DNA from: Heterotrichella gracilis
Lineage: Eukaryota > Sar > Xanthophyceae > Tribonematales > Xanthonemataceae
Reading direction: 5' to 3'
NCBI GenBank assembly: GCA_032358255.1
Contig: JAULBX010001336.1
Span: forward strand, 1 to 64,000
Length of the DNA: 64,000 nt
Of the stretch, positions 15,001 to 64,000 are shown piece by piece (the first letter of the stretch is position 1; every line of letters begins with the position of its first letter). The notes beneath the pieces are model-generated. The model had not been told where the DNA came from. It made no database searches and saw only the letters and a list, made by a program, of their open reading frames with translations. Made by a program: the position numbers and the translations under genes.

Positions 15001-16549
15001 CCACACCCACCTCACAACAGCCACTCCCCCCCACCACCCACAATCCCCCCTACACCCCCCACAATGGTGGCGGCCACCTGGTTGCCTCCCGCAGCACGCA
15101 CACCATACCAGAGGAGGAGGAGGAGGGGGAGGGGGGTGGGGTGCGGTCGCCGCTGACGGGGATGGGGGTTGAGCTTGTGGGGATGAGTGATGGGGACCGG
15201 GATGTGTTTGGTCGGGGGGGCGAGGAGGGGGAGTGGGAGGCTATGATGGGGCAGGGGATCAGCGGCATTAGCGGGATCACAAGCAATGGGAGCGATGCGG
15301 AGGGGGAGGGGGAAGGTGAGGGTGGGGGGAAGGGGGCCTGATGCTAGGTGACACATGGGAGAGGGTGTGGGGATGTATGTGGGTGGAGGCCAAGGTGTAG
15401 GGTGGTGTGGGGAGAGATGTGCACTTGCACGCCCAGCCAAATGCGCAGGGCGTGGGCTGTGGTGTATGTTTGGCACACATGGCCCCTTTGGGTGTGCCAC
15501 TGGTGCATCACACAAACCCCCCTCCCTTGTTGCTCTTAATAGTCGAATCTGGTACAAGCAATGCCAGGATGGACTGAGTGGTGCAAGCTTGTGCAAGGCT
15601 GATTGATGTTCTGGCTGTATTGTCGGGAATCCTCTTATTTTGTTACATGTAAGGGCAGTTCATCAACTAGGTTCCTTTACATGCTTTACCCCCGACCAAG
15701 CACCACCACCCCCTTTGCGCAGAGGAGTACGAGACCATTGCCGATAAGGCGGTGCGCACATACCAGAGCATGAAGTATGCGCAAGGTGGGTGAAGGGAGA
15801 ACGGGGGGGGAAGGGGGGGCGTGGTGCTGTGCCTGCGTGGGGCATGGCTCTGGCCTGGAACAGGGATATTTGCAACCCTGAGGATTGATCCTAATGAGCA
15901 TGTGTGGCATTATGTGACATAATTTATGTCTTTTTTTGATACAGTGAAGTGGGTGGTGCTGGCATCATGTGTGGTGCTGGCATCACCCATGTATGTGACC
16001 CTGGTGTACGTATGTGTGTGCGCTCCTGCAAATGAACCCTAAACGCTATATGCGTGCACCCACGCAACTCAACCTGATGCGCGCATGTATATGTGTGCAC
16101 CCGAGCAAATGAACCCTAGAACCTCAACCCCTGCAACTGAGCCTGTGGTGTTATGTGTGTGCAGCCAACAGCGGGCAACCTGATGCGCACATGTATATGT
16201 GTGCACCCTACCAAATGAACCCTAGAACCCTAGAACCCTAGAGTCCTAGAACCTCAACCCTGCATGTGTGCACCCCTACAGCTGAGCCTGTGGTGTTATG
16301 TGTGCAGGCAATGACGGGCAACAAGAACAGGCGGGCCCACACTCCCCACCCCACAGCAGCCCGTCTCGGAGCAGTGGGGAGGTTGGGACCCAAGGGGTGG
16401 GAGAGGTGGGTGAGGGAGGCAGCGGCAGCGAGGGGGGGCGCCTCATGCAAGGGGCAGGGGAGGATGGGGAGGCAGGGGGGCAAGGAGAGGTTGAGGAGGA
16501 GGGGGGCCAAGGGGAGGGGCCCATACCGGAGGCTAATGGCACGCATTGA
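12049..16549 (+). CDS. DHHC-type protein S-palmitoyltransferase
   Basis: Nine in-phase exons, 12049-12124, 12274-12327, 12504-12672, 13381-13552, 13957-14138, 14432-14590, 14927-15315, 15723-15785 and 16308-16549, encode 501 aa. Two membrane segments lie at residues 30-50 and 63-83. The Cys-rich domain reads [19 protein letters not shown] then [12 protein letters not shown] (residues 117-150). Two more membrane segments follow (159-183, 203-228), then the TTxE motif as QTTYEHFR. The enzyme transfers palmitate from acyl-CoA to protein cysteines at endomembranes, through an acyl-enzyme on the DHHC cysteine. Residues 271-501 form a hydrophilic Gly/Glu/Ser-rich cytosolic tail. Reading past donor 15316 would stop at 15341 and give a shorter tail; the three-exon end is preferred because both extra junctions keep phase. 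Confidence 0.9.
13345..13358. repeat. Two CCCTAAA telomere-type units in an intron
   Basis: A perfect double unit of the plant-type telomere repeat lies 23 bp before the acceptor of DHHC exon 4. Similar degenerate units occur in introns throughout the window. Confidence 0.8.
16071..16322. repeat. Tandem duplication including the 3' splice site of DHHC exon 9
   Basis: Copy A (16071-16178) and copy B (16177-16322) both run from AACCTGATGCGC through the acceptor tract TGAGCCTGTGGTGTTATGTG...CAG into GCGGGCAAC or ACGGGCAAC. Only copy B leads into the long open tail exon. Copy B also carries three AACCCTAG units (16218-16241). Confidence 0.85.
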
Positions 16550-18096: not shown

Positions 18097-19676
18097 TCAG
18101 GGTGAAGGTCCCTGGGGTTGACTTTCCCCCTGCTCGGGCTGCGGCGGGTCTTGCTGCAGGTTGGTGGGATCGCTGAGGGTGTACTTGGGCAGCTCGTACT
18201 TGGAACCTGGGGATAGGGATGAGGGAGGGGGGGATATATTTGTGGGTTTGTGTTCCAAACGTACCATACCTTTTCACACACTGACCAAGGCCATTTGCAT
18301 GATTGTAGCCAGCACTGGCGGCACCACGGCACAGCAGAAAGCCATCTAATGCAGGCGCGCTAGCAGCTGATGTGGTGTGGCTCAAGTTGGTGCTTAGAGT
18401 ACGTCACAATCCCACAGCAGCGCAACTACCTAGCATCATTCCAGCACCACCCCACACCTCACACACTGCACCAAACATACCACCGCCACCCCATTGCATG
18501 CACCCCTCAGCCCCCACCACCCTCAATAACGCCCACCTCTCTCGTCGTAGCAAACCGTCATGTCTGGCGCCGCCACAATCACCCCCGCGCTGTCTAGGAT
18601 TACCCTAGCGGTGGCCACATCAGCCTCACAGGCGGCCTTCAGGGCGTCCCAGATCACTGCGGCAGGGGTTAAGGGTTTAGGGTTCAAAAACTAGGGTTAG
18701 GGTCTCACAGGCGGCCTTTATGGCGTCCCAGATCACTGCGACAAGGGAACCATGGGTGGGCAGGGATACCCACAAACCCTATGCCCGGGTTTCCAGGCAG
18801 GGTAGACCAGGCTTGATTGGGAAACACTCACAAGCGGGAACAAAGAGCAATTTGAACTCAAAGATTGAACACAAACATGTTTGCACAGCGCAGCACGCGT
18901 AACCCAACGTGAGTGTATGGATACATGGCGCCTCAGCCTCTTCAACTACCTAGCGCACCCACCTCTGTCCCCGCCATAGTGAGGCGACGTGTCCCAAAAC
19001 TCCTCCCGCATCCTCTGCACCAGGCACCACCGAGGGGTTAGGGGGCTGCTGGGGCACTTGCGTGTTTAGGATTGGGGTCTTGAGGCACTAATGGGGCGGT
19101 GGCTTGCACGGAGCCCATTTTTTGTAGGGTCCAGGATGTGATTCATGCGATTGCACCACCCTCAGCCAACGCATGGCCGATCCAAGCGTGCATGATGTCT
19201 GCATCATGGCGCATGCACTTGCACACAAAACGGGCGACCATAGCAGCGCTATCACCAGCAGTGATACCACTGCGAGGAAGCTATGTGCACCCAAGGTTGT
19301 TCCCACAGCATTGCACCCTATGCGTGGCTCCTGAGTGGTGCCTGTGCCACCCACAGCATATTATTTGAGAACCCTATGCCCTAGAGGGATTCCCTGTCCC
19401 CTATGTGATGCAAGAGCCTCTTCACAACCTGGGGAATACTGTACAGGCATGACACTCTGCCATGAGATCCACTCAATGGCATGAAGGAGTTTTGGGTTTA
19501 AACCGTCCGCGCTACTCCCATGCACCCAGCTGGCTTGGACCCCTCACCTTGAGCCTGCTGACTGTGATGGGGGTGTCGCTCTTCCACTTGGGCTTGGCAT
19601 GCAGGGCAACCCGCTGATCGCCCCGCTGACCGCCACCACCGCCAGTGGCCGCCTCTTTAGAAGCCAAGCAGCCCAT
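18097..19676 (-). CDS. UBTD-like protein (DC-UbP N-terminal domain), N-myristoylation/palmitoylation signal
   Basis: Four minus-strand exons, 19676-19548, 19014-18963, 18656-18537 and 18206-18097, give 136 aa in phase. The protein starts MGCLASKEAA, a consensus for N-myristoylation at Gly2 with a palmitoylatable Cys3. It continues KPKWKSDTPITVSRLK, REEFWDTSPHYGGDR, VIWDALKAACEADVATAR, and YDERGSKYELPKYTLSDPTN. This is the conserved N-terminal domain of UBTD1/2, which in animals binds ubiquitin-conjugating enzymes. The C-terminal ubiquitin-like fold is absent and the protein ends in a Gln/Pro-rich tail, as in some short plant members. The role is probably in ubiquitination at membranes, by family inference. 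A fragment of exon 3 is duplicated in intron 2. Confidence 0.9.
18625..18744. repeat. Copy of UBTD exon 3 start in the intron, separated by telomere-like motif
   Basis: The exon 3 start and acceptor (18625-18664) recur at 18704-18744 with three substitutions inside the coding part. Between them lies AAGGGTTTAGGGTTC followed by CTAGGGTTAGGGTC, degenerate TTTAGGG units. The outer copy still has a CAG acceptor but lacks the rest of the exon. Confidence 0.85.
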
Positions 19677-20676: not shown

Positions 20677-23600
20677 ATGCCGCAAGGCGTGCGCCAGCTG
20701 TTGCGGTGCGGTTCGGCCTCGCTCGCCGCGCAGTGCAGCCAGTGGCGGAGTGTGGCATGGGGCCAAGTGCATATGCTTGCGGGCGCCTGTGCCCCGAGCC
20801 ACACACAGGGCCGTGCGGTGGGTCACCAAGCGGGCAGTGCCCTGGGGCCTGGCGTCACCATCGAAGCACAGGACAAGGACAAACACACGCACACGTTCAT
20901 TTTCCTACATGGTAGGAAAGTAACCCTAACCACGTTCCCAAACCCTACCAATTGTTCATCCTTTTACGCCATATGTCTAGACCCTACTCTACACAGGTTG
21001 TGGCACTACCCCTGAAACATGCACTCTGCCCCTCGCCCAAGCAACCCACTGCACGTTTGAGCACATGCAGCCCGAGGGGTAACCCTGGCCAAAACCCTAC
21101 AAAACCCTACTGTGTGGTTTCCCCCAGGTATGGGCGAGACGGGCCCGCACTGGCTTGACATCATGGAGGGGCACGTGCTGCCTCACCACCCTACCCTCAA
21201 GGTGGTGCTGCCCACCGCCCCACTCAGGTACACCATACCGCGCACACCTGCATACCGCAGCCACTCTCACAGAGAGTCTCAGCTAAGCTTGCCACTTGCC
21301 CATGCACACAACCAGAGGGTAGGTATGCAGGGGGCAGACAGCAAAGCAACACTCCCTTGCAACCGACACCCCGCGCAGCCGACCCTTTTCCAGCTGCAGA
21401 GGGTTGACCCACCACCGCCCTGCACCCCCACCCTTCAACCCCCCTTCCCGCAGGTCGTTGACCGCCTACCCCGGCACCCAGGCACACGCGTGGTGGGACA
21501 GGCTGGGCAACCGCTCCCGGTCCCAGGAGCCAGTGAGGGAGGCGCCACAGGCAGCGGCGAGCATCGTGCAGCTCATAGAAAAGGAGGTGGGGCAAAAACC
21601 ATAAGGGTTTTGGTGGTAGGGTTTGGAACCAGATGTGCATGTCGTGGGGCTGACTTGGCGGGCAGGGGAGGGTTTTGATTGGATCCGCGTAACAATGTCA
21701 ATCTGGAGGTGGATCGTGCCCATTGTATTACAATTCCCGGGGTTGGCGAGGGAAAGGCATGTTCATGCATGCACGAACGGCATGTGCGATCATCGGTTGC
21801 AAAGATGGCCCCACCCGCTGGGTAGTATCCATGCAACATGTGGTACAGGCAGGCATATCCAAATACCTTAATATCAATACATTGATGTACTTGCAAGCCT
21901 CCCGGAATATGGGCACTTCTCCACGCAGGTGGCAGCCGGCACCCCCTACCGCAACATCATACTGGGGGGCTACTCCCAGGGCGCAGCCGCCGCCATCTAC
22001 GCCAGCCTGCGGCTGCCCCACCGCCTGTGCGGCCTGGTGGCGGTGAACGGTTACCTGCCGGGCCTCGCGGCGGCGCCGCTGCACATCCAGGAGAGGCTGC
22101 CCTACCCGCTGCTGTTCTGCCATGGGGCGGCGGACCAGCAGGTGCGGGTGGAAAGCCTAGTGCCCTAAAACCCTAGATCCTCTGGTGTTGAAATCCTACA
22201 TTTAATGCCCTACCCGGTGCTGTTCTGCCATGGGGCGCGGACCAGCAGGTGCGGGTGGAAACCCTAGTGCCCTAAAACCCTAGACCTGTGGTATCAAAAT
22301 ACGTTTTCACTCTGACTGAGCATGCTGGGCACTTACTCTGATAAATTTCCGCCTCGATGGGTGCTGCGCATTGGTCGTGTGGGGCCAGGGACAGCATTTC
22401 CCAGCTGCAATGTCACTCACTCACAATTAAGTTTATTAAAAACCTCTATTAGAACCTCCTTTTATAATGTTGGAATTTATTTATTATTTTTTGCAGGTCC
22501 GCATTGAGGAGGGTTGGCGCGCCTTTTCCATCCTGTACACCGGATCCACCGGCCAGCTGGACACTGATGCCGCTGAGGGGCTGAGGCGCATGTGGGCATA
22601 CTCGGCGGCAGAAAAGTGAGTATTGCGCATGCATGGGTAGGGAGGGAAGCACATGACGGTGGATGGGTCGTGCGCATGGTGGCAGCGCAAGGGGCATTGT
22701 TGGCGGCAGGTGCTGCACGTGCGTGTGGCCTCTCACATGCGCATGTGTGCATGGTCGTCGCAGCCACGTGGGTAGGCATGTGGGCGCTGGGCGGCGCGTG
22801 TGCTTGTTGGCGGTGCGGGCATGTGGCGTGGTCAATGGCAGGCACTTGGTAAAGCAGGCACATGCTGGTGGCAGGGGTATACTGATATATTACTTTTAGC
22901 ATTTCAAACTATTTTAATCTATTCAAATGCCCCTGCTGGTGGCCGATGCGTGCCCATGCGTGTGGGCTTACCCCTTCACCCCACCAGTGGACCCTGCCCC
23001 CATCTCCACCTCCACCTCCCCCGCACTGAACCCAACCCCATCCCTGTCCCCCAGCCCCGACTCCTCATCTGGCACCGATGACTCTGACGGGGAGGAGATT
23101 GTGTCCCTGCGCCACCGCCTGACAGTGCTGGATGAGCCTGCACCGGTGTACAGGGCAAACAACAACATGATGCAAGGTAAACCCCAAATCCTAGCCTAAA
23201 CCCTGACCATGCTCACCTGGGAAACCTACTACCATAACCTAATCATGCACCTCAGTGGACCACCTAGCACCAGACAGTGGACAAAACCAAGCAATGATGC
23301 AACGTTAACCCACTTCCTATGCCTCAAGCCCCATGGGAATCGCTAAGCCCTAAACCGCAAACCTGCACCAACTCCCTCCCCCATCCCCATTGATTATATT
23401 GCTTTATAGCAGTTTTTTATAGTGGATTTTGTTTTATTACTAGTAATACAACATGATTTTTTCTTCCAAAATTATGCAGGCCTGCGCGGCCCCGCCTGCC
23501 TGCTCCACGGGCGCAGCAACCAGGGGTACTGTGCAGTGCGGGGGAGCGTGTCATCCTTCGTGACCTTCCCCAGCCAGGGGCACGACCTGAGCAGGGAGAT

Positions 23601-23966
23601 GGCGCAGGTGGGGAAAGGAGGGGAGGAGAAAAGGGGGAAACCCTTGGGATGGGATATTTTGTACTCCAAAATTCCAACAACCAAACAACGTCAAAACCTT
23701 GGGAGTATATTTATTGTTTGTCTTTCACTTTCTTGCCATCCCTAGCAAATGGAAGGCGACTGCATCAAGTGCGCGGGCGAAGCATGTTTTTGCACTCCCG
23801 GAACCTAATTAAGGGTATTCTTTGCCTGCAGGTGATGTCTGATTGGCTGGATCACGTGATGCAGCCCCAGCCCCCACACCGCCACCACGCCAGCAAACAT
23901 GGCCACAGCCACAGTCACAGCCATAGCCACCAACCGCAACATCCCCCCCAGCAGCAGCCTGCATAG
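20677..23966 (+). CDS. Acyl-protein thioesterase/lysophospholipase-like alpha/beta hydrolase
   Basis: Exons 20677-20911, 21128-21227, 21454-21586, 21929-22141, 22497-22615, about 22988-23176, 23480-23607 and 23832-23966. Family landmarks appear in order: oxyanion-loop FIFLHGMGETGPHW, nucleophile GGYSQGAAAA (GxSxG), acid FCHGAADQQV, and histidine TFPSQGHDLSREM. That is the fold of APT1/LYPLA enzymes, which remove palmitate from proteins or hydrolyse lysolipids. Two oddities are visible. A Ser/Pro/Thr/Asp-rich insert of about 60 residues (exon 6) separates the Asp and His strands, and the C-terminus is a His-rich tail (HGHSHSHSHSH). Exon 5 ends in phase 2 but exon 6 reads in phase 1, so a micro-exon or an indel remains unresolved there. 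The N-terminal 60 residues are not conserved. Confidence 0.78.
22098..22287. repeat. Duplicated end of thioesterase exon 4 with its donor site
   Basis: The exon 4 end, its GTGCGG donor and the first intron bases (22098-22178) recur at 22206-22287, almost identical but with one G to C-type change and a 3-nt loss (GGGGCGGCGGACC to GGGGCGCGGACC, frame-breaking in effect). Both copies end in GTGCCCTAAAACCCTAGA, a CCCTAAA-type stretch. Confidence 0.88.
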
Positions 23967-29859: not shown

Positions 29860-30060
29860 TTTTCTCCTGCAGCTCCTTCAGGAAGGCATCCACATCCCGA
29901 TGTGGAGTTCACAGCCATGTCATACCATCTCCCTATCTAACCACTTGCACCCAAAGCACTGCCATGCCCACCTGAAAATTGACTCCCTACTCCTGCAGCT
30001 CCTTCAGGAGGTCCTCCTCATCCAAAAACACACTCTTGTACCCCTCCATGGTGCACCCAC
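29860..30060 (-). pseudogene. Two extra partial copies of the glyoxalase C-terminal exon
   Basis: On the minus strand 30053-29993 reads EGYKSVFLDEEDLLKELQE then stop, closely matching the true end [19 protein letters not shown] (30160-30101). A shorter copy at 29905-29865 reads DVDAFLKELQE. Neither has the rest of the exon or a glyoxalase upstream of it. They are tandem duplications of the gene's terminus downstream of the functional stop. An alternative terminal exon is conceivable but I see no clear acceptor. Confidence 0.8.
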
Positions 30061-30100
30061 AGCACCCCCTTATTCCATTTGAAATGCCACCACATTTTTC

Positions 30101-32445
30101 CTACTCCTCCAGCTCTTTGAGGAAATCCTCCTCGTCAACAAACACAATCTTGTAGCCATCGGGGTCAGTGGTGGCGGTGATCTTGGTACCCAACCCAGGG
30201 ATGGGGCCGGCCTCCCGGGTGATCTTGCCACCCACAGCCTTGATGGCGTCAGCGGTCTTGTACACGTCCTGCAAGGGGAATGGGGCGTGAAGGGTGACCA
30301 GAGGGTGAAACCCTAGGATAGAAAGTCTAGGGAAAGGACATGCAGTACGTGCGCATCCGTAGTGTAAGTGCGGGATGCGTTTACACCATCCGACGCGGTC
30401 CGTCCGAAAACAACCGCAATTGGCGTTCGCCCAAGCATGCACCTGCCGCCGCCACCTGCTCCCCTTCTAACCCCCCACACACCAAGGTACTTATGGCAAC
30501 CTGCGTGCATGCGGACTCCCCTGCACCCACCGCACCCCTTTCCGCACCCACCCACCCACTTTATTGTGTCACTGGCCACCTACGCACAGCCATCCCCCTT
30601 CCCGCATCCGCACCCACCCCCACCCACCTTTGTGCTGATGGCCACCTGGGCATAGCCCCCCCCCTTGCTGTACTCCCCCTTGCCATAGTTGTAGGTCAGC
30701 TCAAACACCGTGTTCTCCTCTTCAGGGCCATAGGCCAGGAAGGCAAGGGTGTACTTGTACTCGGGGTTGTCGCGCGTGCGCAGCAGGGTCATGCCCAGCA
30801 CCTGGGTGTACCACTGGATGCTCTTCTCAAGGTCGCCCACGCGCAGCATGACCTGCAGAGGGGGTTTGGGTAGGATACTGTTATGGTTCTGGTGGCGCGC
30901 AGCATGACATGGGGAGGGTTTCGTGTAGGGTTTTGGTAAGGGTTCTTCCATGTGTGCAGCAGGGTCACGCAGCATGACTCATGCTCAACACCTTGGTGTA
31001 CCACTGGATGCTCTTCCCAGGTCGCCCACGCGCAGCATGAACTGGAGGGGGTGTTGGGCAGGGTTTTGAATGGACATAACCAAGTAAGACTTGGTACACA
31101 TATCAGCTTTGGGTAGAGTTAGGCACTGGCAATGCTGCACTCGATGATCATGTAGACCCTAGTCCAGGGTTCCCTCTACTGACCTGCGCAATAGGCTCCT
31201 TGATCTCGCCCTCCCGCCCAATGATCTCCCACTTGTAGCCGGTAGGGTCCTCAACAAATGCAATCACTGTTTTCCCACCCTTGACCGGGCCTGCGTCACG
31301 CGAGATCTTGCCGCCTGTGCAGGGGGAAGGGGCCAATCAGGAAATTGCAATGTCTTGAATATATGCAGAATGAAATTCAAATGCTCCTCGGTCTGTCAAC
31401 ACTGGCGAGCCCCTTGCTTCCCTGCTGTTCAACTTCACCATGCTCAGTCACCCTTGCTTAAAATTCATTTATTACATTTATAATTACACACAACTAAGTT
31501 ATCAATTGTAATATCACAATTCTGACCCCAATCAGGTTTAATTGTTCATACCAGCTCACCTCTCCCCCTCCTCCCAGCTGATGGTCCTGCTTCCTCATCC
31601 CCCACATTCACTCCCGGCCACCTAACGTAACACTCTCCACCGCACAACCTCCCCCTCTGCCCACCATCCTACAGCCTGCTGATTTGATGCTCTCATACGT
31701 CGTTCACCGCCAGCCCAACCTGGCCATACCCCTACCCAAGAACCACGCACCTAATGCTCTTCCCAGGATTATGAACTACTCTCCCTAAGAGGCCCCCTCC
31801 CACCCCACACACCCACCGCCACCATCTAATTGGCATTCATCACCCCCTCCCCACCCCAACACCATCCCCTACCTGCTGACTTGATGCTCTCCACCGTCTT
31901 GTACACGTCGTTCACCGCCAGTGCAAAGTGTCCAAACCCCTCCCCAAGGTCGTACGAATCAACTCCGTAGTTGTAGGTCAGCTCAAGGGCAAAGTTGGTC
32001 TGCTCGGGGCCATACCCTAGGAAGGCGTTGCTGTACTTCTCCTGCAATGGGCGCAGGGTTTAGGGTTCCGGGATTAAGATTTAGAATCAGGATTCAGGTG
32101 AAATTGAGGGAAATGTGGCTTTCCGTGGCCCTGTACCTCATGAATGCAGTGCTGTATTATTCCTCAGGAGTCTAACTATAGGATTTAGGGTTTAAAGCAA
32201 AGTGGGCTTCATGGGACCCAAACCAATAGTGCTGCTGTATTGCTGCTGCAGCTGCGTTAGGGTTGGGATCTAGGGTTTACAAAGCGCACCTCCGGGATGT
32301 CCCTGTATCGCAGCAGCTTCATCCCAAAGTGCTTCTTGTAGTAGTCGATGGTCCCATCCATGTCGCCCACCCGGTACACAGCGTGCAGCATGCGCCGCTT
32401 GTCCTCAGACACCCAGTCAGGGGTGGCGCTGGCGGCTGTCGCCAT
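30101..32445 (-). CDS. Glyoxalase I (lactoylglutathione lyase), two-domain
   Basis: Five minus-strand exons, 32445-32290, 32041-31873, 31314-31184, 30852-30628 and 30268-30101, join in phase to 282 aa. Two vicinal-oxygen-chelate domains follow each other. Domain 1: [58 protein letters not shown]. Domain 2: [56 protein letters not shown]. This is the plant-type monomeric GLX1 that isomerises the hemithioacetal of methylglyoxal and glutathione to lactoylglutathione using a divalent metal. Metal ligands include the His in MLHAVY and the Glu in LELTYN. The ATG follows an acceptor-like GGTTGCAG, so a 5' UTR intron is likely. Introns 2 and 3 carry degraded copies of neighbouring exon ends. Confidence 0.93.
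30957..31042 (-). repeat. Degraded copy of glyoxalase exon 4 start inside intron 3
   Basis: The stretch resembles 30780-30855 (exon 4 start): both include CACC-TGGTGTACCACTGGATGCTCTTC and AGGTCGCCCACGCGCAGCATGA on the plus strand. The copy has small indels that break the reading frame. Confidence 0.85.
31667..31740 (-). repeat. Degraded copy of glyoxalase exon 2 end inside intron 2
   Basis: Plus-strand text CCTACAGCCTGCTGATTTGATGCTCTC and CGTCGTTCACCGCCAG matches the exon 2 end and donor at 31868-31922 with a deletion of about 9 nt. It lies 130 nt downstream of the true donor in gene orientation. Confidence 0.8.
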
Positions 32446-34717: not shown

Positions 34718-37700
34718 ATGGGGGCGGAGTTTAACCCGGGGTTTTCGTTTGACCTGGGTGGTGGCGGTGAGGAGGCGCAGGCACCATGGGAGCTGTCAGG
34801 TACGCACCCACCGCCACCAACACCGCCACCCAACGCGCATACATTTACACACACCCGCAGACAAGCGCCCGTTGACAATTTACTGGCAATATTGAAGCGG
34901 AAGAGGTTAAATAAAAGCCGTGTAGTGGGGGAACAGGGTTGGTGGGTGTGTTACGTGTTGATATGTTTCAAGACATACGCATGCATGCATATGCGCGGCG
35001 GCCACTGCCGCCAACTTAGTGCCTGTAGCTCGTTACCCAGCTCGCGGTGGCGAGATCGCCAGAGATGGCGTGTACAGTATGCATGCGTAGTGAAAGCCTC
35101 GAGGTACCGTACCAAGGCGGATCTGCTTTGTGGGAGGGGCACCGCTAGCTACAGGGGTGAAAGCACTATGCATGCATATGCCTCTGCATAACTCGACTGC
35201 GCGTATTGCCCACTTGCACACCTAGACCCCTGATAACACCTCTGCACTCGATGTCCTCGCATTGGGGTCTTACAGGGTTGGCTACATTCGGCCAAAGCTG
35301 TAAGAACAGCACAAAAATGACCCTAGAGGGTTTGACCACTGCCTTTCCCTATTTCAGGCGCCATAGCACAAGCCACCCTGCCCGAGTATGGTACCTCCAT
35401 CGACCACAAGATCAGGCAGCGACTGGCCAGCACAGGCAGGGGTGGACCAGTGGTGCGCCCTCAAAACCCTACCCAAAACCCTACAACCCTACACCCCTTT
35501 GCATAGCTCCCACGATTAGGCAGCGCTTTGCCAACACAGGCAGGGATAAACCCCTGGTGCGGCCGAGGATTCTACCCAATGTCCTTAAGCTTTGCTGCAG
35601 ACCCCTGCATATTTCCACCAATGTGCAGCAGCAGTTGCCCAGGTGCTGCTGCACTACGAACCACAGCCGCCAGCAGTGTAAGGACAGCACGCACCTCAAG
35701 GTCATGGTACCCTGTCCGGGTTGGGGTCCTGTACCCTAGCAGGGTCAGCATAGGTGGAATGCTGTCCCATATGCACAGCATGCACCTGCCCTAACAGGGT
35801 ACACATGACAGGGCCAGCCCTGCGCGTGTACCCTGGTGGCATGACCCCTTTGCCATGGCCAGTGATCCTGGGGTGTCTGTGTCGAGGGGGGACCAGCACC
35901 ACCACCACCGCCGCCTCCACTACACACCATGCTGTTTAGATTACGACCCTCAAATGCAAAGCCTAACCCTGTGGCTATGTGGTCTGTGCAGGCGCCAAGG
36001 GGGCAAGGCAAGGGGAAGGGGAGGGCCAAGGCCCAGGTGGTGCAAGAATCGGATGACGAAGAGGGGTTGAGCTCAGATGATGGTGCATCATCGTCTGATG
36101 ATGAGCCGCTGCCAGGGGAATTGGACAGCGACGATGGCTCTGATGAGGTTGGATCGGACAGTGATGATGGCGAGGATGTTGGATCAGATGATGGGGCCGA
36201 TCAGGGGGAGGAGGAGGAGGAGGAGGGGGGTGAAGGGGAGGAAGAGTCGAGTGGGGAGAGCGATCTGGAGCAGGTGGATTTTGATTCAGACAGCGACGGT
36301 GTGGCGGATTCCGGCGACGTTGATGCGGCACCATCAGATGACGATCACATGGCCGATTCTGATGAGGAGGGATCGGGGCCAGAATCGGATGATGATGATG
36401 GTGGCGATGCAGACATGGATGCTGGTGCATCTGGGAGCAATCAGTCAGGGAGTGAATCAGATGCCAGTGGATCGGGTTCTGATCAGGAGGAGCAAGCAGC
36501 GGGTCGGAGGGGGGGGTCCATGGCAGCTTCGGGGTCTGGGCAGGGGGAGGTTGCACTGGGGGACAAGGGGAGGAAACGTGCCGCGCAGGAGGGAGCGCAA
36601 GGGGGGAACAAGCGGCAACAGACAAAGGTGTGTGGCGCATCCGTGTGTGGGTGGGATTCGGTCGGAAACCCTTATGCGTGGTTTGGATGCAGTTCCAAGA
36701 GCAGAGCAATATGAGCAGCTACCCTTTGCGACCCTCTGCACCAATCGGCTCTGTCTTGGCAGGCTTTATATTATCCCTGGATACATAGGTTTCAAGGGTG
36801 CTTGGCACATTTTGCGTATTGTCACACCATCAACCCTCAAGGTCACACAACCACCCTGTGGCAAGTGGTGGACGCATACGGTGGTTGCTGGTCTTCGACT
36901 CCCAAAGGTGTCTACCGCACACCCAACCCTCCCCTCACTGTGTGCCCTCCCACATCCTCCCTTGCGGGCCTCACCCCACTGTTTTCCTCCCCAGTCAAAT
37001 TTCTTCGCCGCCACCCCTGAGGGCACCCGATTCAGCGCCACCTCCTTTGCTGATCTAAACATATCGCGCCCCCTGCTCAAGGCATGCGAGAAACTGGGCT
37101 ACGCGCATCCCACACCCATACAGGTGCGCAGGAACCCAACACTCTAATTCCTAAACACTGAACCCTGAACCCTGAACCCTGGCGGGTAGCTCCCTGCGTC
37201 CTGGTTGACCCTAAGCGACCAGGCCCTGGTAGGATAGGGTGGGTGCTGCACCACATGCGCTGTGTGCTGGGATGGGCAGTGTGCACTGGACAATGGGGTA
37301 GGGAGCGTAGGGATTGGGGTAGGAGAGCCCAGGGCCACATTGGCTGACCTGACCAGCAGGACTAACAATGCCCTGCAAGACGGTGCATGATCAAAAAATG
37401 GTGCCACCTTTGTTAGTAACGAGTGCCGGAGAAACCTGCTTGGGGCCGTGTGTGCATGGCTGCCTGCTAATCTGAATGTACTGCTAGAATGTATGATACG
37501 AGCCAATCCTGTACATGTGTGAATAATGATGAAGAGCACGCCGCAATTTGTACATGCATGCCCTCCCCTTGTTAAAGCCCCCCTCCCCTCCCCTCCCCAG
37601 GCCGCCTGCATCCCCCTTGCCCTCACCGGCCGCGACATCTGCGGCAGCGCAGTCACCGGCAGCGGCAAGACAGCGGCATTCACGCTCCCACTGCTGGAGC

Positions 37701-53100: not shown

Positions 53101-54635
53101 TCAGATCTGGCTGGGTCAGGCGTACAATGCACAAGTCAAGATTGTACTGCTAAAAATTCAATTTAGTAGTAGGAAAGGAGTAGTAGGAAAGCAGTACTCC
53201 AAACATTTCAACCTTTAAACCCTATATGGGTGTCCCTGCAGACAAACCCTGTGCCACTCCCCTCTTAAACCCCAGCCCTAAACCCTAAATGGGTGCCCCT
53301 GCAGACAAGCCCGCCCGCCGCCGCGCCAGCTGGTCCTTCAGCACCAAGAAATCCCGGCGCAACAGCGCATCCCTGGGACTGGACATGTCTGCGCTGGACA
53401 TGGATGAGAAGGACACCAAGGGTGCGGCCATGATCGAGACGGCAGCAGTGGTGGCGCCCGTCAGGGGTGAGTGGCAGGGATGGTAATAGGGAAGGGGAGG
53501 AGTGGGGGGTTGAAGATGTAGATAGCTGCTGGAATTGCATGCCTAGTCTTACATTCTTGCCAATGTCCCGATGCTGTAGCACTGTCACATTGCAGCATTC
53601 CCGTAAGGGGAGACCATCCAGGACCTAGGCGAGTGGCCTCACTAGCCCACTTTCATATACTCACCTGCGCTGTCCCTACCAAACCCTAGTCAAACCCTCA
53701 TCCCAGAAGCCACCGCTGGCCTCACCCGCGCTGCATCCATGGGCTTGCCTACACTGTCCAAAACCCTAGCCAAAACCCTGTCAAATCCTAACCCAAACCC
53801 TGCTCCCGCAGCCACCGCTGGCCTCACCCGCGCGGCTTCCATGGGCTCCTCCTACGCATCGGAGCTCAACAGCGCAGCCCAGGATGTGAAGCAGAGCGAG
53901 GGGCTGGACATCTTCGACACCCCGGCACCCGCACCAGCACCCGCACCGGTGGTAGTGCCCACCCCCGCCCCTGCGCCGGTGGTGGCTCCTGCTCCAGTCC
54001 CCGTCCCCGCGCAAGGCCCTCAAGTGAACGATTTTGACATCGATTCGCTCATCCTGAAGAGCGGGAAGACCACAGGGCCATCATCCCCCCTCGGCGGGAC
54101 ACCAACACCGGCACCGGCACCTGCGCCTGTGGCGGTCCCCGTCCCCGCACCCCCACCAGTAGTGGCGGCTGTGCCCTCAGCATCGCCTGAGCCAGAGGCC
54201 GAAGATTCAGGTGCGGATGGGCAGATGTGATTAAATCCAGTGGCGCCCTTTCCTGTGTTCGAGCCAGTGTTCAGCAAGATAAATGGGATTTGCATTGGGG
54301 TCGAGGAATTCTCAAAAGGTTACCTGGGACAGTGTGGGACACATTCATGCCAGACAACTTTTGGGCATTAGGGTGTAGTGTCAAGCGTTTTGCCTGTTGC
54401 TGAGTGCTGCGCATTGCTGCTGCATCATATGTTGGTCCACATGTCACGCGCGGTACCAAAACCCTAATGAATGTCCTTGGAAACCCTTAATTAATCCTCC
54501 GTCCTCGGTTCCCTTGCAGCATCAGAGCCAGTCGTGCAGCTGGGGAGCAAGAAGGGAATTTTCGGGCGCGGGCGCCGCCAATCCCTGTCCCTGCAGGACC
54601 TGGGGATTGACATCGTCCCCGAGGAGAACAAGTAG
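44182..54635 (+). CDS. Single-pass membrane protein with five cysteine-rich (FN2-like?) repeats
   Basis: Sixteen in-phase exons: 44182-44361, 45538-45577, 45970-46211, 47016-47244, 47606-48103, 48534-48636, 49052-49212, 49522-50086, 50450-50760, 50996-51134, 51554-51790, 52048-52232, 52650-52847, 53305-53466, 53812-54210, 54520-54635. From Met 44197 the product is 1249 aa. A signal peptide (TGAAVTCVVLLCSLQLCAHVVLG) precedes five repeats with fixed spacing C-x13-C-x8-C-x11-C and consensus CxFPDVxAGxxxYDC, YCRTAxSG, CxPYG. The linkers are Pro/Thr/Ser/Ala-rich, like algal hydroxyproline-rich wall glycoproteins. One membrane helix (IAGSIIGVFAAVALFALVLF, about residues 783-808) is followed by basic MRSKK and a 440-residue cytoplasmic tail with RRxS-like sites and Ala/Pro repeats. 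The topology fits a cell-surface receptor or wall-linker. No kinase domain is present. The repeat family is uncertain. Confidence 0.82.
48468..48552. repeat. Duplicated acceptor of membrane-protein exon 6
   Basis: TTGTGTAGGCGGCGCAAATTACATTC (48471-48496) resembles the true exon start TTGTTGTAGGAGGCGCAAACTACACC (48525-48550). Both carry a TAG acceptor. Only the second is followed by a long open exon. Confidence 0.7.
53228..53312. repeat. Duplicated acceptor of membrane-protein exon 14
   Basis: ATGGGTGTCCCTGCAGACAAACCC (53227-53250) and ATGGGTGCCCCTGCAGACAAGCCC (53289-53312) share the acceptor and first exon bases. Between them lies CCCAGCCCTAAACCCTAAA, a telomere-type run. Confidence 0.82.
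53703..53860. repeat. Duplicated start of membrane-protein exon 15
   Basis: CAG-AAGCCACCGCTGGCCTCACCCGCG...TCCATGGGC (53704-53743) precedes the true acceptor copy at 53809-53848. AAAACCCTAGCCAAAACCC lies between the copies. Confidence 0.85.
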
Positions 54636-56386: not shown

Positions 56387-59300
56387 ATGGGTGAGCTAGG
56401 CAAGGGGGACAGCGAGGCATCTGGGTCACCCCCAAATGGCGGGACGGCGTCGCTGCTGGAGCCAGCAAAGAGCTTCAAGTACGCAAACAAACAACCATGC
56501 ACAAAGAACAACCCTCGCAACCAATCGATAATGCTGGTTGTTTTGCTACACGGGGGCCCTTTCGGCTTCGCCTTGTGCAGCACTGAGGATAGGCAGAATA
56601 CCCTCCACTACACCCCAACCCAACCCAAATTCAATCCATGCATGCATATGCAGCGAGGGTCATAGGCATCCAGGCGGTGGCACAATGGAAGCCTTCCACG
56701 ATATAAAGCAAAAGGCGCTTGTGTTTCCTATCAATAACATCTAACACCAACGGTCAAAAATAGAAAAAGAATGAATAACATTTGGAGGAGTGGTATTTGA
56801 CTGCGATCCCGTGCTGTCACTCTGCGTTATGCTGCCTGGTTGCGCACTTAACCCTTGTAAATTTTGAGGCCACAGCTGTTCCTCCCCGCCTGTGCACACT
56901 GTCCCCACTTCCAGAGAAAACCCTAATAAAACCGACCTCACTAGGCCAAAACCCTAACTCTTGCCCCCCTTTGCCTGCAGCTATGCCGCTGCCAGGGCCG
57001 CTGGCGACGAGCTTGGAACCCTTGGCAAGGGTCTGCGCAAGCGACACAACACCCTACCCTCCGTTCTGCAGGGGGCACCTGAGACTGCCAAGGTAAGGGG
57101 GAGGCCACAAGGGTTTACGGCAACAGAACCGGAAACCCTTAACCCTACGTACCAAATTTGAGACTGCCAAGGTAAGGTGGACGGTATGTCTTGTCAGTAG
57201 GCAGGCAGCGATGGGTCTTGTAGCTGTGGAAAAACTTCCCTGGGGCATTTATTGGCCTGACCTGCTTGCATGTTTGGTGGCGAGTTCTGGAGCTTGCTGT
57301 GTGACTCACCCCCCTTGCTGTGTGACTAACCCCCTGCGTCCCGCAACCCCCTGTGATCCCCCTATTGACACCCTCATTCAGTGCTTCCCCATCACTCCTC
57401 CCCCAACCCCCCCTAACATACTCCGTGTGCACCCCTGCAGAAGCACCAGGAGACAGTTGCCCGGCTGAAGCGCATGCAGGCATTTGAGGCATGCGACTAC
57501 GACCCTGTGGTGCGTGCAATGCCCTAAGGGTTAGGGATAAGGTTCTTGTTGCATGCAGGGCCCTGTGGCATGCGTCTACAACCCTAGGCTATGGTGCAAA
57601 CAATAACCCTTAGGGTTTTGGGGTGTCACAACGCTGTGCAGTGCTCGGCAACCCGCTGATGCATGACCCTTGGGCTTAAATGCAGAGTTTAGGGTTTTGG
57701 GGTGTAGGGTTTGGGCTTGATGTGTGCACAGACAACAGCGCCATGCAAGGAGGTGGTACTGGTGTGCACAAAAGCCCAAGGGTTCGCCATGTGGGGTGCT
57801 CCAGCAAGAGGAGTTACCTTGGGTTTCTGGGGTCTGCAAGCAGTACCCCGACCTAGGGTTTTCCTTCCGCAGGACTCGGAGCTTGAGCGGCAGTACAACA
57901 GCGCCAGGGGGAAAAAGGACTATGACCTGGCCGACACATGGAAGTGGTTCATTGCCATACTGATTGGCCTGGCCATGGGCTTCTTCGCCTTCCTGGTGGA
58001 TTGGGCAATCGAGTCGCTCAACCACTCCAAATACGCGTGGGCCAAGAAGTACATCACGCCTGGGGGTAGGTGCAAATGTGCCAGGGTTGTAAATGAGGCA
58101 CGGGCCTTTGCGCCCTGATCGCATCCGTCAGCCCTTTGGCACAAACCAGTGCAGGGTGGTTTGCGTTGTTTTGTGATTGAATCCATCTCCAGGTGCAGCA
58201 AATAATGTGCCATACATATTTGAATTGCATGACAGCGTATACAAGCCCCCCTCCCGCCCCCCCTGCAGGCGGATTTTCCTCCCCCTACTTCACCTTCATG
58301 GGATTCTCCCTATGTTTTGCCCTCATCGCGGGGGGCCTGGTGTCCTTCATCGAGCCCCTGGCGGGGGGGTCTGGGATCCCCGACCTCAAGGTGTATTTGA
58401 ACGGGATCCACATCAAGCGCCTGATGAACATTAGGACCCTCATCGTGAAGCTGGTCAGCCTGGCATTTGCGGTCCCCGCGGGGCTCATCTGCGGGAAAGA
58501 GGGCCCTTTTGTGGTGGCGGGGGGTATCACGGGAGGCGGCATCTCTGGTCTGGGGTCCATGTGCGTGCGCAACCCTACCCGATTGAATACCCTAGCAAAA
58601 AGCCTTCCTAACTGCAAAGCTGCAATACGATGTCTGCAATGCAGTCCCAACCATCAGCCCCAGTCACCATTGAATGTGAGACCCTGTGAAATCATCGGTG
58701 CACACAGGGTTCCACGGCTGTGCATCCCTACAAATGCCCTGGTATGCTTGCACACCACACCCCACCATCCCACCCCCTCCCAAGATGGCCTTCCTACCCC
58801 CCTGCATTCTATTCCCACCCCTAACCCCCCCACCACAGGACCCTGACAAACCTGGTCAAGGGGAAGTACCGCTTCAAGATCCCGCGCAAGTATGGGGGCT
58901 ACTTCCGCAACGACGCGGACCACCGGGATTTCACTGCAATCGGCACCGCGGCCGGGGTGGCTGCCGCCTTTTCCGCCCCTATAGGGGGGCTGGTGTACGC
59001 GATTGAGGAGGGGGTTTCCTTCTACAGCCAGTCTGTGTTCTGGCGCTGCCTGCTGTGCACCAGTGTGGGGGTGCTGTGGCTGCACTTCCTGGTGCAAGTG
59101 GTGGTACGTGTGTGGGGGAAGTTTCAACAAACTTGAAACCCGCAGGGATGTGGTACTCTTGTTGCAGAACGGTGGGTAAGCGTGGGGGTGCTGTGGCTGC
59201 ACTTCCTTGTGCAGATGTGGTACGTGGCGTGGTGCCGATTAGGGACACCCTAAAAAGCCCTCGGGGTTGTTCAATGTGAGAGATATCACGGATGCTTCTC

Positions 59301-62300
59301 ACTAGCATGGGGTGCTGTGGCTGTCATCATTGATGCAGTGTTCACAAAACCCTGCTTATTACCTACATGAACCCTACAGAAAACCCGAGACAGGCCTTGG
59401 CAGGGCTTGTTGGGAGTTTGCTTTTGCGTGCATGCTGAGGCTGCACATGCACCGCAGCCTGAAAACAGGAGTGTAGGGTTCAGGATTCATGCTTTGACGT
59501 ATAGTCGACCCCAACCATGTGGCATGCATTGCGGCCACCCACCCACCCCATCCATTTTGGTCCCCTGTGCAGGTAGACCCCCAGAAATTGCTGGTGGCCA
59601 AATTCGGCCGGTTCCGGGACTTTGGCCTGTACAGCGACGGCATCGCCAACTACGGCAAAATTATGTACTATTACATCTGGGAGATCCCGATATTCATGGC
59701 CATGGGGGCTGTGGCGGGGCTGCTGGGGGCCCTCCTCATTTCCCTGAATGTCACCCTCACCAAGCTGAGGCACAGGTGCGCGGGGAAACCCTGCAGGGTT
59801 GGGAGGAAACCCTTTAGGGTGGAACGCTGGCAGCGGTAACCCCGTCGGGTTGGGCTTTACATTGGCACGTGTAAAGCCTACCAAGGGCTGTGAATGGCAT
59901 ACTAGTAGTCAGAGTTACAAGGGACTGCAACTGGACATGTGAATCCCAGCACAGGGATGGAATGACAGCAGTATGCAACCCTTGTGTAGGGTTCACATTG
60001 ACCACAACCAACAACAGAGAGGCTTGTCCCACTCCCTATTGCCCAGATCCCCTCTGAATCCCCACCCTGCAATTTTCTTCTCAGCCACCCCCACTGCTCC
60101 TCGTCATGTCCCTGCGGGTGTGCAGGCTCCAAGCGCCTGTTGGACCCATTGTAGTACCCCACACCCCAAAATTCCCTTCTCGTCCTCCACTTGCAGCTTC
60201 ATCCCCTTGTTTTCCAGATCCATTGTACAAACCCTAAATCTTGCCGTAGGCTTTCCAAATCACCCTACACAAAACCACCCACTTGCAGGTACATCCCCAT
60301 GACCTCGGCTCCAAGCACTGGTAAACGTTGCATTACCCTAACAACAAGACCCTAGGGTTTCCTAATCACCCTCCATCCCCCCACCCGCAGGTACATCCCC
60401 ATGTCCTCCGGCTCCAAGCGCCTGATAGAGGTGATGGCGCTGGCAGCGGTGGTCAACACTGTGTGGTTCCTGGCGTCCTACCTCAGCCCATGCAAAGCCA
60501 TGCCAGCGGAGGTGCGTAAACCCTGACCAGGGTTTATTTCTAGGGTTTGTAGGGTTCTTTGTGTGGTTCCTGACGTCCTATCTCAGTCCATGCAAAACCA
60601 TGCCAGGGAAGGGAGCGGGACACCCTACTCAGGGTTTGTATGTTGAAGAGTTCCTTGGGGGGGTCCTGGCAGCGTACCTTGGCACATGTGCACCCCTGAC
60701 AGTGGGATTTTGGGGCTAAAGCATTGGGGTTTTTCATCAGTGCAAAGGATGAGGTCGTAAACCAACCTACAGGAGCCCGAGTGGCAGCCCTCATGGGAAC
60801 CAGGGGCGCCTGTAGGCGGCGGATGCTCAAGCTGGGGCTGTAGCATGCTGTGTTGCAAAACTTCACCTTCATAGCCCCATAACCCTTCTGTGCAGGACCA
60901 GCGTACGTGACTCATTGCCAAATGCTGTGCCCTCATCCTTGTAGCCCTACACCATCACCCCCAAAACCCTAAGCCCCTGTCTCAAAACCTGACGTGCAGG
61001 ACCAGCTCAAGTGGTTCAATGCCAAACCCTTAGCCCTTTTTCCCGGACCCTAAGCCCCAGTCCCTAAACCCTTAGCCCTTGTCCCCAAATTTTGCCATGC
61101 AGGACCAGCTCAAGTGGCTCAATGCCAGCGCTGACGATGACATGAAGGAGAGCTTCTATGGCGGAGGGGAGCTCAACCACTTCCCGCAGCTGTGGTACGG
61201 GTTTAGGGTTTAGGGTTTAGGGCTCAAGCATTTTCCGCAGCTGTGGTACGGCAGGGGCCATGGTGGTGGGGGGAAGGGTGTGGGTAGGGTGTAGGTAGTG
61301 GGCGTGGTGAGGGGTGAAGGGTTGTGGAGGGCAGTGGTGCAGGGGTTGAAGATGCAGCCCTGCATGACGGCGTTGGGTCCTCGTTAATTTCCACCCGTGC
61401 AGTTGGTTTCACAACGCTCTCGTCTAGATCCTACACAGAACCAGAATTCAAAACTTAAACAGAAACCTCTTCCAAACCCTCACAAATACATATAGGACAG
61501 AAACCTCAACCAAACCCTCACAAAGTACGTAGCTAACGCAAACCTCGCCCCCCACAGGTGCCCCAACGGCACCTACTCCACCTACGGCCAGTTGTTCTTC
61601 ACCCCCCTGTCGCAAGCCACCAAGCTGATCATCCACCTGGGCGAGCCACTCACCGCCTCGCACTTCAACGAGGGGTTCCACCTGCGCAACGACGACACCT
61701 ACCAGTTCCCCGTGGGCCCCATGATCACCTTTTTCTTCCTCACCTACATCTTCATGATATACACAAATGGGGTGGGCGCGTCCACGGGTACGTGTGGGGG
61801 GCAGGGGTAAAAAGCGCACAACCTAGGTCCTGAACCCTAATTCTAAACCGTGTTTAAATCGGGTGGCGCATCCACAGGTACGTGGGGGGCCAGGGGTACA
61901 TAACACACCCTGGATCCTGAACCCTAAACCAGCCTCGCACTGCACTGCAACTACAATGCAGCGCACGTGCTCTACCACCTCCGAAGCCCTTGTCAGGTCA
62001 TCAAACCCCATCCGATCAACTTGCATCGGCCGCATCTTCTTCTGTACCCTGTGATCACTCCTGGCCGAGCATTTGGATAAAGTGACAAACTTTCGTTCAC
62101 AACGGCCATTTGCATCAGACCCCAACCCTAACAACCGCTAACCATGCATCACTCCCGCCGCAGGCATGTTTGTGCCTGAGATTGCCATTACATCGGCTCT
62201 GATCACCATTGCATCGGCGCTGATCACCTTGCATCCCTCCCACCGCAGGCATGTTTGTGCCTGCGATCGCTGTGGGAGCCACCGGGGGCCGCCTGGTTGG

Positions 62301-64000
62301 CCGATTAGTGGCCCTGATCGTGTACCAGATCGACCCAACCGTGGTCATCTCCCTCCCCTCCTATGCGGTGGTTGGCGCTACTGTGTTCCTCGGGGGCGCC
62401 ACCCGCATGACCCTGACTGCTACCATCATGATCATGGAGACCACTGGATCGGTGCAGCTGATCATCCCATCCATGCTGGCTGTGTTTGTGGCCAAGATTG
62501 TGGGCGACAGGTGATTGCTTGAACACAAATGCTGTCCACATCCATCAAATGGGAGCTGCCTGTGGCTACATAAAAATTGCATTAATTTGCACCTCTGAGT
62601 GAAGAGGTAATCAAATGCAATATGACGGTATTGGGTATGATGCTGTATAATAACCACATAGATTATTAGTACCTCCCCCAACCATGTGGTACCTCCCATC
62701 ATACTTCTCAGCAAGCGGTGGATGGAGTGGGCAAGTGAAGTTATTCTTCACCCCACATTACATTACATATGTGCCCGTAGAGGGATGCATCCACCGCCAG
62801 TATTATTTACCTCGCCAACCACCATCCCTCCAGGTTTGGCCACGGCCTCGACGACACACACATCAAGCTGCGGGGGGCACCCCTGCTTGAGGAGCCTGGC
62901 ATCGACCCTTACCAGAAGATGGTGGCGGACAAGGTGGAGGTGTCTGAGGTGGCTGTGGCGCACCTGCTGGCGCTGCCGCCGGTGGTGGGGGTGGTGGCGG
63001 CGGTGGACGCCCTGCGCGGGTCGGCGCATCAGGTGTTCCCCGTCACGCACCAGGTCAAGCAGGTGGGGTCTTAGGGTGTAGGCTTTAGGGTATCGTATGT
63101 ACGAGGGCTCTGGCTGCAGCCCTTGGCCCCTGCACATGACACCACGCCTGCCAACAAGCACTGATTCAAATTTATAAACTGATTTTGGATCAAACATTGG
63201 AATGGTTCAAAGGCAAATCCCCTATCATGGCGGCGCTGGGTGGCAAGACCTTGCAGCTACACGGTCATGTCACCCTCGGGAGCATGCAACGAATTAACAA
63301 CACCGATGCACCCAAATGACCAATCTCAGGATCGATTGCTAACTACATTCCACCCCGTCCACAGGCCTTTGACGGCGAGCCCTTCCAGCTGCACGGCGTC
63401 ATCACCAGGGTGCAGCTGCTGCGCATGCTGAGGTACAAGATCGGCCTGGTGGTGCCCGACCTGGGGGGCCACTTCCCGCGGCCAGAGAGCCTGCTGCCCA
63501 CCACGCAGGACAAGCGCGGGTACATTGTGGGCAAGATGGAGCAGATCCCGCTCAAGATTAGGCCAAAGGAGGACATGGAGAAGGTGTTCGGGTGAGTGTT
63601 CATGCAGTGCTTGTTGGTATATAAAAAAGATATATAATAGGCCCTAGGATTTTCAATGTCCTTCCCAGGGAACGCATGTGGCTTGACCGGGGCCCTTTCA
63701 TGCAGCCGCAGACATCCATCGGAAACCCATGGTGACAAACCGCCGTTGACAGTCACTGCAACACAACCTGGAGCCGCACCACCTCCTCCTGTAGCTGGAC
63801 CTCACTAACCCTGACCCAACCCCTGTCCCGCAGGACCCTCGAGCCCCACCACTGCGACATGTGGCTGGACCTCACCAACCCTCACATAACCCTAACCTTG
63901 CCCCCACCCCTGCCCTGCAGGACCCTTGAGCCCCACCACTACGACATGTGGCTGGACCTTCGCCCCTTCATGCAGCGGGAGCCATTTGTGGTCCAGCAGG
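56387..64000 (+). CDS. CLC-6/7-like chloride channel or Cl-/H+ exchanger, 3' end outside window
   Basis: Fourteen exons join in phase: 56387-56478, 56981-57092, 57441-57509, 57873-58065, 58269-58560, 58839-59103, 59573-59775, 60391-60511, 61103-61194, 61558-61787, 62249-62510, 62834-63062, 63365-63591 and 63921 onward, about 822 residues before the edge. AFEACDYDPVDSELER is the N-terminal motif of the CLC-6/7 clade. Pore signatures are GGSGIPD (Ser as in chloride-selective members), GKEGPFVVAGG with the gating Glu, GMFVPAIAVGATGGRLVG, and FLGGATRMTLTATIMIMETT. KCP-like CPNGTYSTYGQLFF is also typical. Exons 12-14 begin the C-terminal CBS pair (VEVSEVAVAHLLALPPVVGV). It probably resides in an endomembrane or vacuole. 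Nearly every later intron holds copied exon ends. Confidence 0.92.
57079..57177. repeat. Duplicated end of CLC exon 2
   Basis: GAGACTGCCAAGGTAAG at the exon 2 end (57081-57097) recurs at 57162-57178 after AACCCTTAACCCTACG. The second copy has only the last five codons. Confidence 0.75.
59063..59226. repeat. Duplicated end of CLC exon 6
   Basis: GTGGGGGTGCTGTGGCTGCACTTCCTGGTGCA...GTGGTACGTG (59064-59110) recurs at 59179-59226 with few changes, including the donor-like GTACGTG. Confidence 0.85.
60112..60610. repeat. Copies of both ends of CLC exon 8 in flanking introns
   Basis: The exon 8 start CAGGTACATCCCCATGTCCTCCGG (60388-60411) has a near copy at 60285-60308 (ATGACCTCGG) and a shorter piece at 60126-60148 (GGCTCCAAGCGCCTG). 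The exon end TGTGTGGTTCCTGGCGTCCTACCTCAG (60460-60486) recurs at 60560-60586 as TGTGTGGTTCCTGACGTCCTATCTCAG. Confidence 0.85.
60893..61252. repeat. Copies of both ends of CLC exon 9, with triple TTTAGGG
   Basis: The exon 9 start CAGGACCAGCTCAAGTGGCTCAATGCC (61100-61126) recurs at 60997-61023 (TTCAATGCC), and a shorter CAGGACCAGCG at 60894. The exon end TTCCCGCAGCTGTGGTACGG (61181-61200) recurs at 61231-61250. The two exon-end copies are separated by three perfect TTTAGGG units (61202-61222). Confidence 0.88.
61202..61222 (+). repeat. Three perfect TTTAGGG telomere-type units in CLC intron 9
   Basis: Three uninterrupted TTTAGGG heptamers lie 7 bp after the donor of CLC exon 9, between two copies of the exon end. 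This is the longest perfect telomere-type run in the window. Confidence 0.92.
61770..61895. repeat. Duplicated end of CLC exon 10
   Basis: GGGTGGGCGCGTCCACGGGTACGTG (61770-61794) recurs at 61860-61884 as GGGTGGCGCATCCACAGGTACGTG, donor included, with CCTGAACCCTAA after each copy. Confidence 0.85.
62158..62270. repeat. Duplicated acceptor and start of CLC exon 11
   Basis: CGCAGGCATGTTTGTGCCTGAGATTGCC (62159-62186) precedes the true exon start CGCAGGCATGTTTGTGCCTGCGATCGC (62244-62270). Between them the motif TCGGCTCTGATCACCATTGCA is itself repeated. Confidence 0.87.
63770..63960. repeat. Two copies of CLC exon 14 start upstream of the true acceptor
   Basis: CGCAGGACCCTCGAGCCCCACCACTGCGACATGTGGCTGGACC (63830-63872) closely matches the true start at 63918-63960, including a CAG acceptor. 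A shorter piece, GTAGCTGGACCTCACTAACC, sits at 63791-63810. Confidence 0.87.

Follow-up and report, generated by a model that had tools for sequence, protein, structure and literature searches.

The window, the 64,000-nucleotide stretch of Heterotrichella gracilis contig JAULBX010001336.1 analysed here, contains many short direct repeats in which a piece of sequence, often including an exon border, lies close to a second copy of itself. In about half of the pairs a telomere-type tract sits between the copies, not beyond them. Of the clues to the origin of the duplications, this telomere motif (TTTAGGG, read as CCCTAAA on the opposite strand) is the most specific. We lean towards reading the repeats as the scars of staggered breaks which were end-joined so as to leave a tandem duplication, telomere-type filler often having been added before joining. 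The effect of the duplications is intron lengthening and a supply of decoy splice sites, not the birth of introns.

The window is contig C16 in a genome of 68.5 Mb and 903 contigs. The counting sample comprised 254 kb: the window and 19 other stretches of 10 kb (L010-L028). A twentieth stretch, L009, was excluded as probably foreign and was included only in the first shuffle test and in the list of open reading frames. L009 lies on contig C1 (894 kb); its open reading frames of up to 2.5 kb and its GC content at third codon positions of about 0.3 are unlike those of the other sampled stretches, and it is probably a contaminant or a foreign replicon. Exons and introns were called with a splice-aware hidden Markov model, self-trained on the sample sequence, and are predictions. 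The final model has 300 exons (median 152.5 bp) and 248 introns (median 236 bp); 54% of the sample bases are labelled non-gene, and some of these surely belong to missed genes. Repeats were collected by two scans: a gapped BLAST self-comparison (at least 35 bits, copies within 500 bp, followed by a low-complexity filter) and a separate ungapped diagonal scan, which gives non-redundant pairs.

Local direct repeats had been reported for the window in a preliminary description; they are real and are found beyond it. The gapped scan gave 175 pairs, against none in three Markov-2 shuffles. Removal of duplicates left 170, and the low-complexity filter, which took out 21 of these, left 149. The diagonal scan gave 99 non-redundant pairs (23 of them in the window), against none in one shuffle; recognisable duplications thus occur about once every 2.6 kb of sample. 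Chance is ruled out as their source by the absence of pairs from shuffled sequence in both scans. When the window is compared with itself at E<1e-3, 28 local rows on the same strand have copies no more than 2.5 kb apart; a few of these rows are low-complexity. The filtered gapped scan has 29 pairs in the window (copies within 500 bp), 18 of them touching a predicted junction; the filter also removed the pairs 40632/40759 and 59062/59179, which nevertheless look real. Direct pairs (149) outnumber inverted rows (25, each inverted repeat being counted up to twice).

Recognisable copies are about 30-130 bp long. Identity within the 149 filtered pairs is 71-95% (5th to 95th percentile; full range 68-100%), so nearly all copies are too diverged to be assembly stutter; that explanation is rejected for them, though the top pair is 100% identical. 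The earlier picture of a process acting at many different times, in many genes and on both strands, is supported. Offsets between copies peak at 100-120 bp (29 of the 99 diagonal pairs) and 190-210 bp (15 of 99). They look bimodal, at about 105 and 200 bp; a relation to nucleosomes or Okazaki fragments is a guess. An apparent floor of 60 bp on the offsets is due to the insensitivity of BLAST: of 30 implanted duplications it recovered none at 30-50 bp, 5 and 7 at 55 bp, and 28-30 from 60 bp upwards; in the diagonal scan 10 of 99 offsets are below 60 bp. Pairs are unevenly spread: of 27 chunks of 8-10 kb, 7 have none and the others have up to 18 (variance/mean 5.5). Duplication density does not follow GC content over these chunks. 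Positions 1-16000 of the window have no pair by either scan, apart from two short low-complexity arrays, which bears out the impression that its first genes are nearly free of repeats.

The heptamers TTTAGGG and CCCTAAA top the over-represented 7-mers. A pattern of three telomeric units has 834 exact matches on both strands genome-wide (a count in which chromosome ends are not separated); the reversed pattern has none. The preliminary description had noticed stretches of this type between copies, and the association withstands counting. Spacers were analysed in 77 simple non-redundant pairs, or in 72 where alignment scores or identity were used. Of the 77 spacers, 39 hold or touch a telomeric heptamer, whereas flanks of the same length do so in 15 and 14 cases (paired P=4e-5 and 7e-5); composition-matched random places give 11.8±3.1 (maximum 23 in 300 rounds). 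Thirty-six of the 77 spacers hold a heptamer wholly inside; for the other 19 word classes of the same base composition this number is at most 11. The excess is present within the window (11 of 18 spacers; flanks 3 and 5) and outside it (28 of 59; flanks 12 and 9), and with pairs from the ungapped scan (39 of 73; flanks 15 and 14). Fillers that align to the telomere repeat with a score of at least 10 occur in 31 of 72 spacers. When the spacers are shuffled the number falls to 6 of 72, and among flanks it is 22 of 143. Where the motif is present, it lies in the spacer only (16 pairs), in the spacer and one copy (10), or in the spacer and both copies (13). Motif coverage is 12.0% in intronic copies, 11.0% in intronic spacers, 2.8% in the rest of the introns and about 0.3% in exons.

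These observations suggest the following sequence of events. A double-strand break with offset nicks would leave staggered ends; telomerase would extend the free 3' ends with TTTAGGG repeats (CCCTAAA on the other strand); a fill-in of the CST-Pol alpha type would complete the extended ends; and end joining would seal them, giving copy, telomeric filler and copy. Events at exon borders would persist where splicing hides them. Telomeric filler within exons would bring stop codons and so would be purged from them. Besides the spacer excess, the preponderance of direct over inverted pairs counts in favour of this reading, as does the covariation, over the 27 chunks, of duplication density with telomeric density outside duplications.

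Several observations weigh against this reading. No telomeric heptamer is found in 38 of the 77 spacers. The 13 pairs with the motif in the spacer and in both copies also fit duplication of a pre-existing tract. The polarity of the filler is mixed: G-type filler is nearer copy A, as telomerase would predict, in 9 of 15 cases (nearer copy B in 5), but C-type filler is nearer B, again as predicted, in only 6 of 16 (nearer A in 9). The dating signal from copy identity is weak. Identity is correlated with telomeric coverage of the spacer over the 72 pairs (rho 0.25, P=0.034), but over the 43 spacers of up to 70 bp the figures are rho 0.26 and P=0.10. Copy identity shows no clear correlation with filler purity (rho 0.12, P=0.51; 31 clear fillers) or with telomeric score per spacer length (rho 0.14, P=0.24). 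Finally, the exon and intron models are self-trained and unverified.

Two alternatives draw on the same data, and both are judged unlikely. Telomere-like tracts may have been present in introns beforehand, the DNA between two of them then being duplicated by unequal recombination or by template switching during replication. The 13 pairs just mentioned favour this explanation, as do the telomere-like motifs in introns outside recognised duplications (the 2.8% coverage given above): chunk by chunk, telomeric density outside duplications covaries with duplication density (rho 0.67, P=1e-4; 27 chunks). However, recombination between tracts predicts that they should also lie on the outer sides of the copies. 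The counts on those sides are close to background (15 and 14 of 77, against 11.8 at random places), and this counts against it.

In the second alternative, telomerase played no part: tandem duplication took place in the ordinary way, through end joining or slippage, and CCCTAAC-type DNA was retained as branch points or pyrimidine tracts. The 38 spacers that are not telomeric and the mixed polarity of the filler are in keeping with this, and so is the bias of introns towards C-type words. On the sense strand of predicted introns of at least 120 bp there are 482 CCCTAAA-type words and 198 TTTAGGG-type words (29 and 27 after shuffling); 145 of the 198 lie in the donor-side two fifths, and G-type words are rare near acceptors. 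Retention for splicing fits less well with three other results. G-type filler is also common, 15 of the 31 clear fillers being G-type on the plus strand; filler is also found where no gene was called (9.2% of spacer bases there are telomere-type, though some of these stretches may be missed introns); and the telomeric excess is local to spacers. Of these explanations, repair of staggered breaks with telomeric filler is the one preferred here.

The repeats had been described as lying at exon borders. Over random positions there is indeed an excess, but it is modest, and repeats are also found in the interior of introns and where no gene is called. When pairs are placed at random over all sequence, a junction is expected to be spanned by 29.5±4.4 of 149; the observed number is 61. 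Within gene territory, 37 of 55 non-redundant clusters span a predicted junction, against 26.0±3.1 expected, and none of 1000 permutations is as high; the other clusters are exon-only (6, 9.3 expected), intron-only (5, 10.3 expected) or mixed (7, 9.5 expected). Of the 95 clusters in all, the other 40 were situated mainly in sequence with no called gene. Predicted exons and introns are so short that an event of about 100 bp will often cross a border; random events in gene territory meet one about half the time (26.0 of 55). A pair in which one copy is under constraint should also decay more slowly and stay recognisable for longer, which may partly explain the excess. The border excess is thus real, at 1.4-fold, and needs no targeting to borders; a strictly border-targeted process is rejected.

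The permutation result is nonetheless what a junction-targeted process would give, whether by reverse splicing, by mobile introners or by copies that themselves create introns. Such a process is very improbable. Longer survival of constrained copies would by itself raise the share of junction-spanning pairs. Repeats that touch splice sites are also left by introners and by tandem genomic duplication that creates introns, but the defining signatures of these two were not seen here. Compared with the whole 254 kb, none of the 77 first copies and only 2 of the 77 second copies have a match at a further site; there is thus no sign of an element family in the sample, and an introner or mobile element family is rejected. 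Homology between donor and acceptor on the zero diagonal, the mark of intron birth by tandem duplication, reaches a score of at least 8 in 2 of the 239 introns; the expected number is 2.07. This is chance level, and intron birth by that route, which the preliminary description had included among the possible outcomes, is rejected.

Two of its other outcomes, decoy splice sites and longer introns, are borne out. Among 30 decoys lying in the same predicted intron as their source, the splice dinucleotide is kept in 24 (13 of 14 acceptors and 11 of 16 donors), and there is no sign in these 30 that decoys are purged; 76 further rows, in which the other copy is not in the same predicted intron, were set aside. 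Recognisable copies and their spacers account for 9,937 of 60,168 predicted intron bases.

The individual repeats of the window are given in the table below.

Table. Local direct repeats of the window, with predicted splice sites; identity is between copies
Coordinates	Strand	Feature	Offset (bp)	Identity	Remarks
16070..16322	+	DHHC predicted intron, two overlapping pairs			acceptor-like TGTGTGCAG ends one copy
16070-16123/16176-16229	+	DHHC pair 1	106	94%	
16127-16179/16272-16322	+	DHHC pair 2	145	85%	
18625..18747	-	pair, putative UBTD-like, no gene called	79	91%	entire 35-base spacer TTTAGGG-type; CCGCAG precedes copied stretch on sense strand
22098..22300	+	thioesterase (Abhydrolase_2) exon end, donor after 22141, intronic copy	108	92%	
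29864..30160	-	glyoxalase 3' coding end, three copies		82-88%	identity in aligned pairs
30541..30666	-	glyoxalase donor 30627 spanned by repeat	66	77%	
30779..31062	-	glyoxalase exon start, acceptor 30852, upstream copy	189	87%	GTAGGGTTTT-type filler in spacer
31662..31948	-	glyoxalase exon end, donor 31872, intronic copy	198	73%	copy decayed (donor GT to GC)
35407..35564	.	pair, no gene called	104	78%	50-base CCCTAAA-type spacer
37724..37886	+	helicase PVRELA segment, two copies	108	80%	
39561..39931	+	helicase triplicated 136-bp unit		98%	identity by TRF
40632..40837	+	helicase exon end, predicted donor 40710, intronic copy	127	82%	
41628..41743	+	pair, predicted exon start 41712	90	92%	46-base CCCTAAA-type filler between copies
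53216..53312	+	acceptor-spanning pair, acceptor 53304	63	91%	
53674..53847	+	acceptor-spanning pair, acceptor 53811	102	84%	CCCTAAA-type spacer
57080..57181	+	short pair, predicted donor 57092	79	96%	telomeric heptamers in spacer
59062..59226	+	CLC exon end, donor 59103, intronic copy	117	90%	
60244..60419	+	CLC acceptor 60390 pair	106	81%	
60460..60637	+	CLC donor 60511 pair	100	82%	decoy donor broken (GT to GG); TTTAGGG-type spacer
60890..61127	+	CLC acceptor 61102 array		75%	units of about 104 bp (2.3 by TRF); CCCTAAA-type stretches
61765..61927	+	CLC donor 61787 pair	91	82%	
62141..62270	+	CLC acceptor 62248 pair	85	89%	
63675..63985	+	CLC acceptor 63920 array, several exon-start copies		79-90%	CTAACCC-type DNA between copies

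The gene names used in the table had first been proposed from the sequence and, apart from the putative UBTD-like one, are supported by matches of the predicted proteins. Pfam matches in the window include DHHC, Abhydrolase_2 (the thioesterase), Glyoxalase and Voltage_CLC, and the helicase is a DEAD-box protein by PDB sequence match. The CLC product aligns with exchange transporter 7 over residues 28-393 and again over residues 504-726, the alignment running through several exon joins. The two-domain glyoxalase aligns over residues 3-284 (E 1.6e-118) with PDB 5d7z, which we take to be the maize glyoxalase. Taken alone, this match and the frequent three-unit TTTAGGG repeats would make an alga of the green lineage likely. 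At 29748-30160, copies of the glyoxalase 3' coding end reach beyond the predicted end of the gene. At 45944-50662, in the region of a putative cysteine-repeat gene, larger repeats lie 1.3-1.6 kb from each other and represent a different kind of duplication, that of a module.

In the helicase gene the model took repeated segments for exons; the PDB alignment shown fits one copy of each. The PVRELA segment is single in known helicases, and the best PDB match takes the first copy; some others, such as DBP10, begin in the second. Each triplicated unit consists of a 57-nt exon piece, a donor and a TTTAGGG-type intron start, and here too the alignment shown fits a single copy. In each of units 2 and 3 the model predicts an in-frame exon of 57 nt that has both of its splice sites; these extra exons could be alternative exons or decoys. 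It should be noted for annotation that frame-open, exon-like pieces beside true exons can be decoys, some of which the self-trained model accepted.

A wider claim is put forward tentatively. The chromosome-end machinery, telomerase with telomere fill-in, may in this lineage be a routine repair partner at internal staggered breaks, duplicating about 100 bp with telomeric DNA between the copies. This might then be one of the main ways in which introns throughout the genome keep gaining length and decoy splice sites, and the number of events may run to tens of thousands (99 per 254 kb, extrapolated to 68.5 Mb). If so, telomeric insertion at breaks and small tandem duplication, which have been described separately, would become one frequent intron-building process. 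The genome would offer many natural examples of differing age for studying how telomerase is, or fails to be, excluded from internal breaks, and how splicing copes with decoy splice sites. Each of the mechanisms involved is known by itself; what appears to be new is their combination at such a density. In open-licence PubMed Central, no title or abstract start among the matches listed describes telomere-filled tandem duplications at exon borders, which is not proof of absence.

Related events are known from other eukaryotes. Vaughn and Bennetzen (2014), to judge by the title, reportedly ascribe natural tandem duplications in rice to patch-mediated break repair.

Plant-type telomere motifs are also spread in the genes of Arabidopsis and rice, where telo boxes are over-represented in 5' UTRs (untranslated regions) and the authors propose telomerase action at free 3' ends, according to the excerpted text of PMC3022908. 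Here, unlike the telo boxes, the motifs lie between duplicated exon borders. Mammalian short interstitial telomeric sequences are likewise telomeric repeats at internal sites, a minority of which have a direct target duplication. In the excerpted text of PMC2246262 they are inserted at breaks, and simple target duplications are seen at 4.6% of the 130 loci in rodents and at 16% of the 25 in primates; the corresponding text of PMC7215372 gives 3 of 66 horse loci (4.5%), ascribed to staggered breaks. The human sequences are described in these excerpts as having no members in exons, and telomere-type DNA is likewise nearly absent from exons here. The mammalian duplications affect 4.5-16% of loci, whereas here there is about one recognisable duplication in every 2.6 kb, about half of them with telomeric words between the copies. 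A parallel in mechanism may be found in mouse and human cells, where Pol alpha-primase, guided by CST, produces small tandem duplications at breaks with 3' overhangs (PMC8355091). Those duplications arise at engineered breaks, and telomeric filler is not described in the excerpted text of that paper, whereas the present duplications are natural ones known from sequence alone. In both cases short direct copies of local sequence lie next to each other, and in the engineered system they come from offset nicks, end joining and a telomere fill-in complex.

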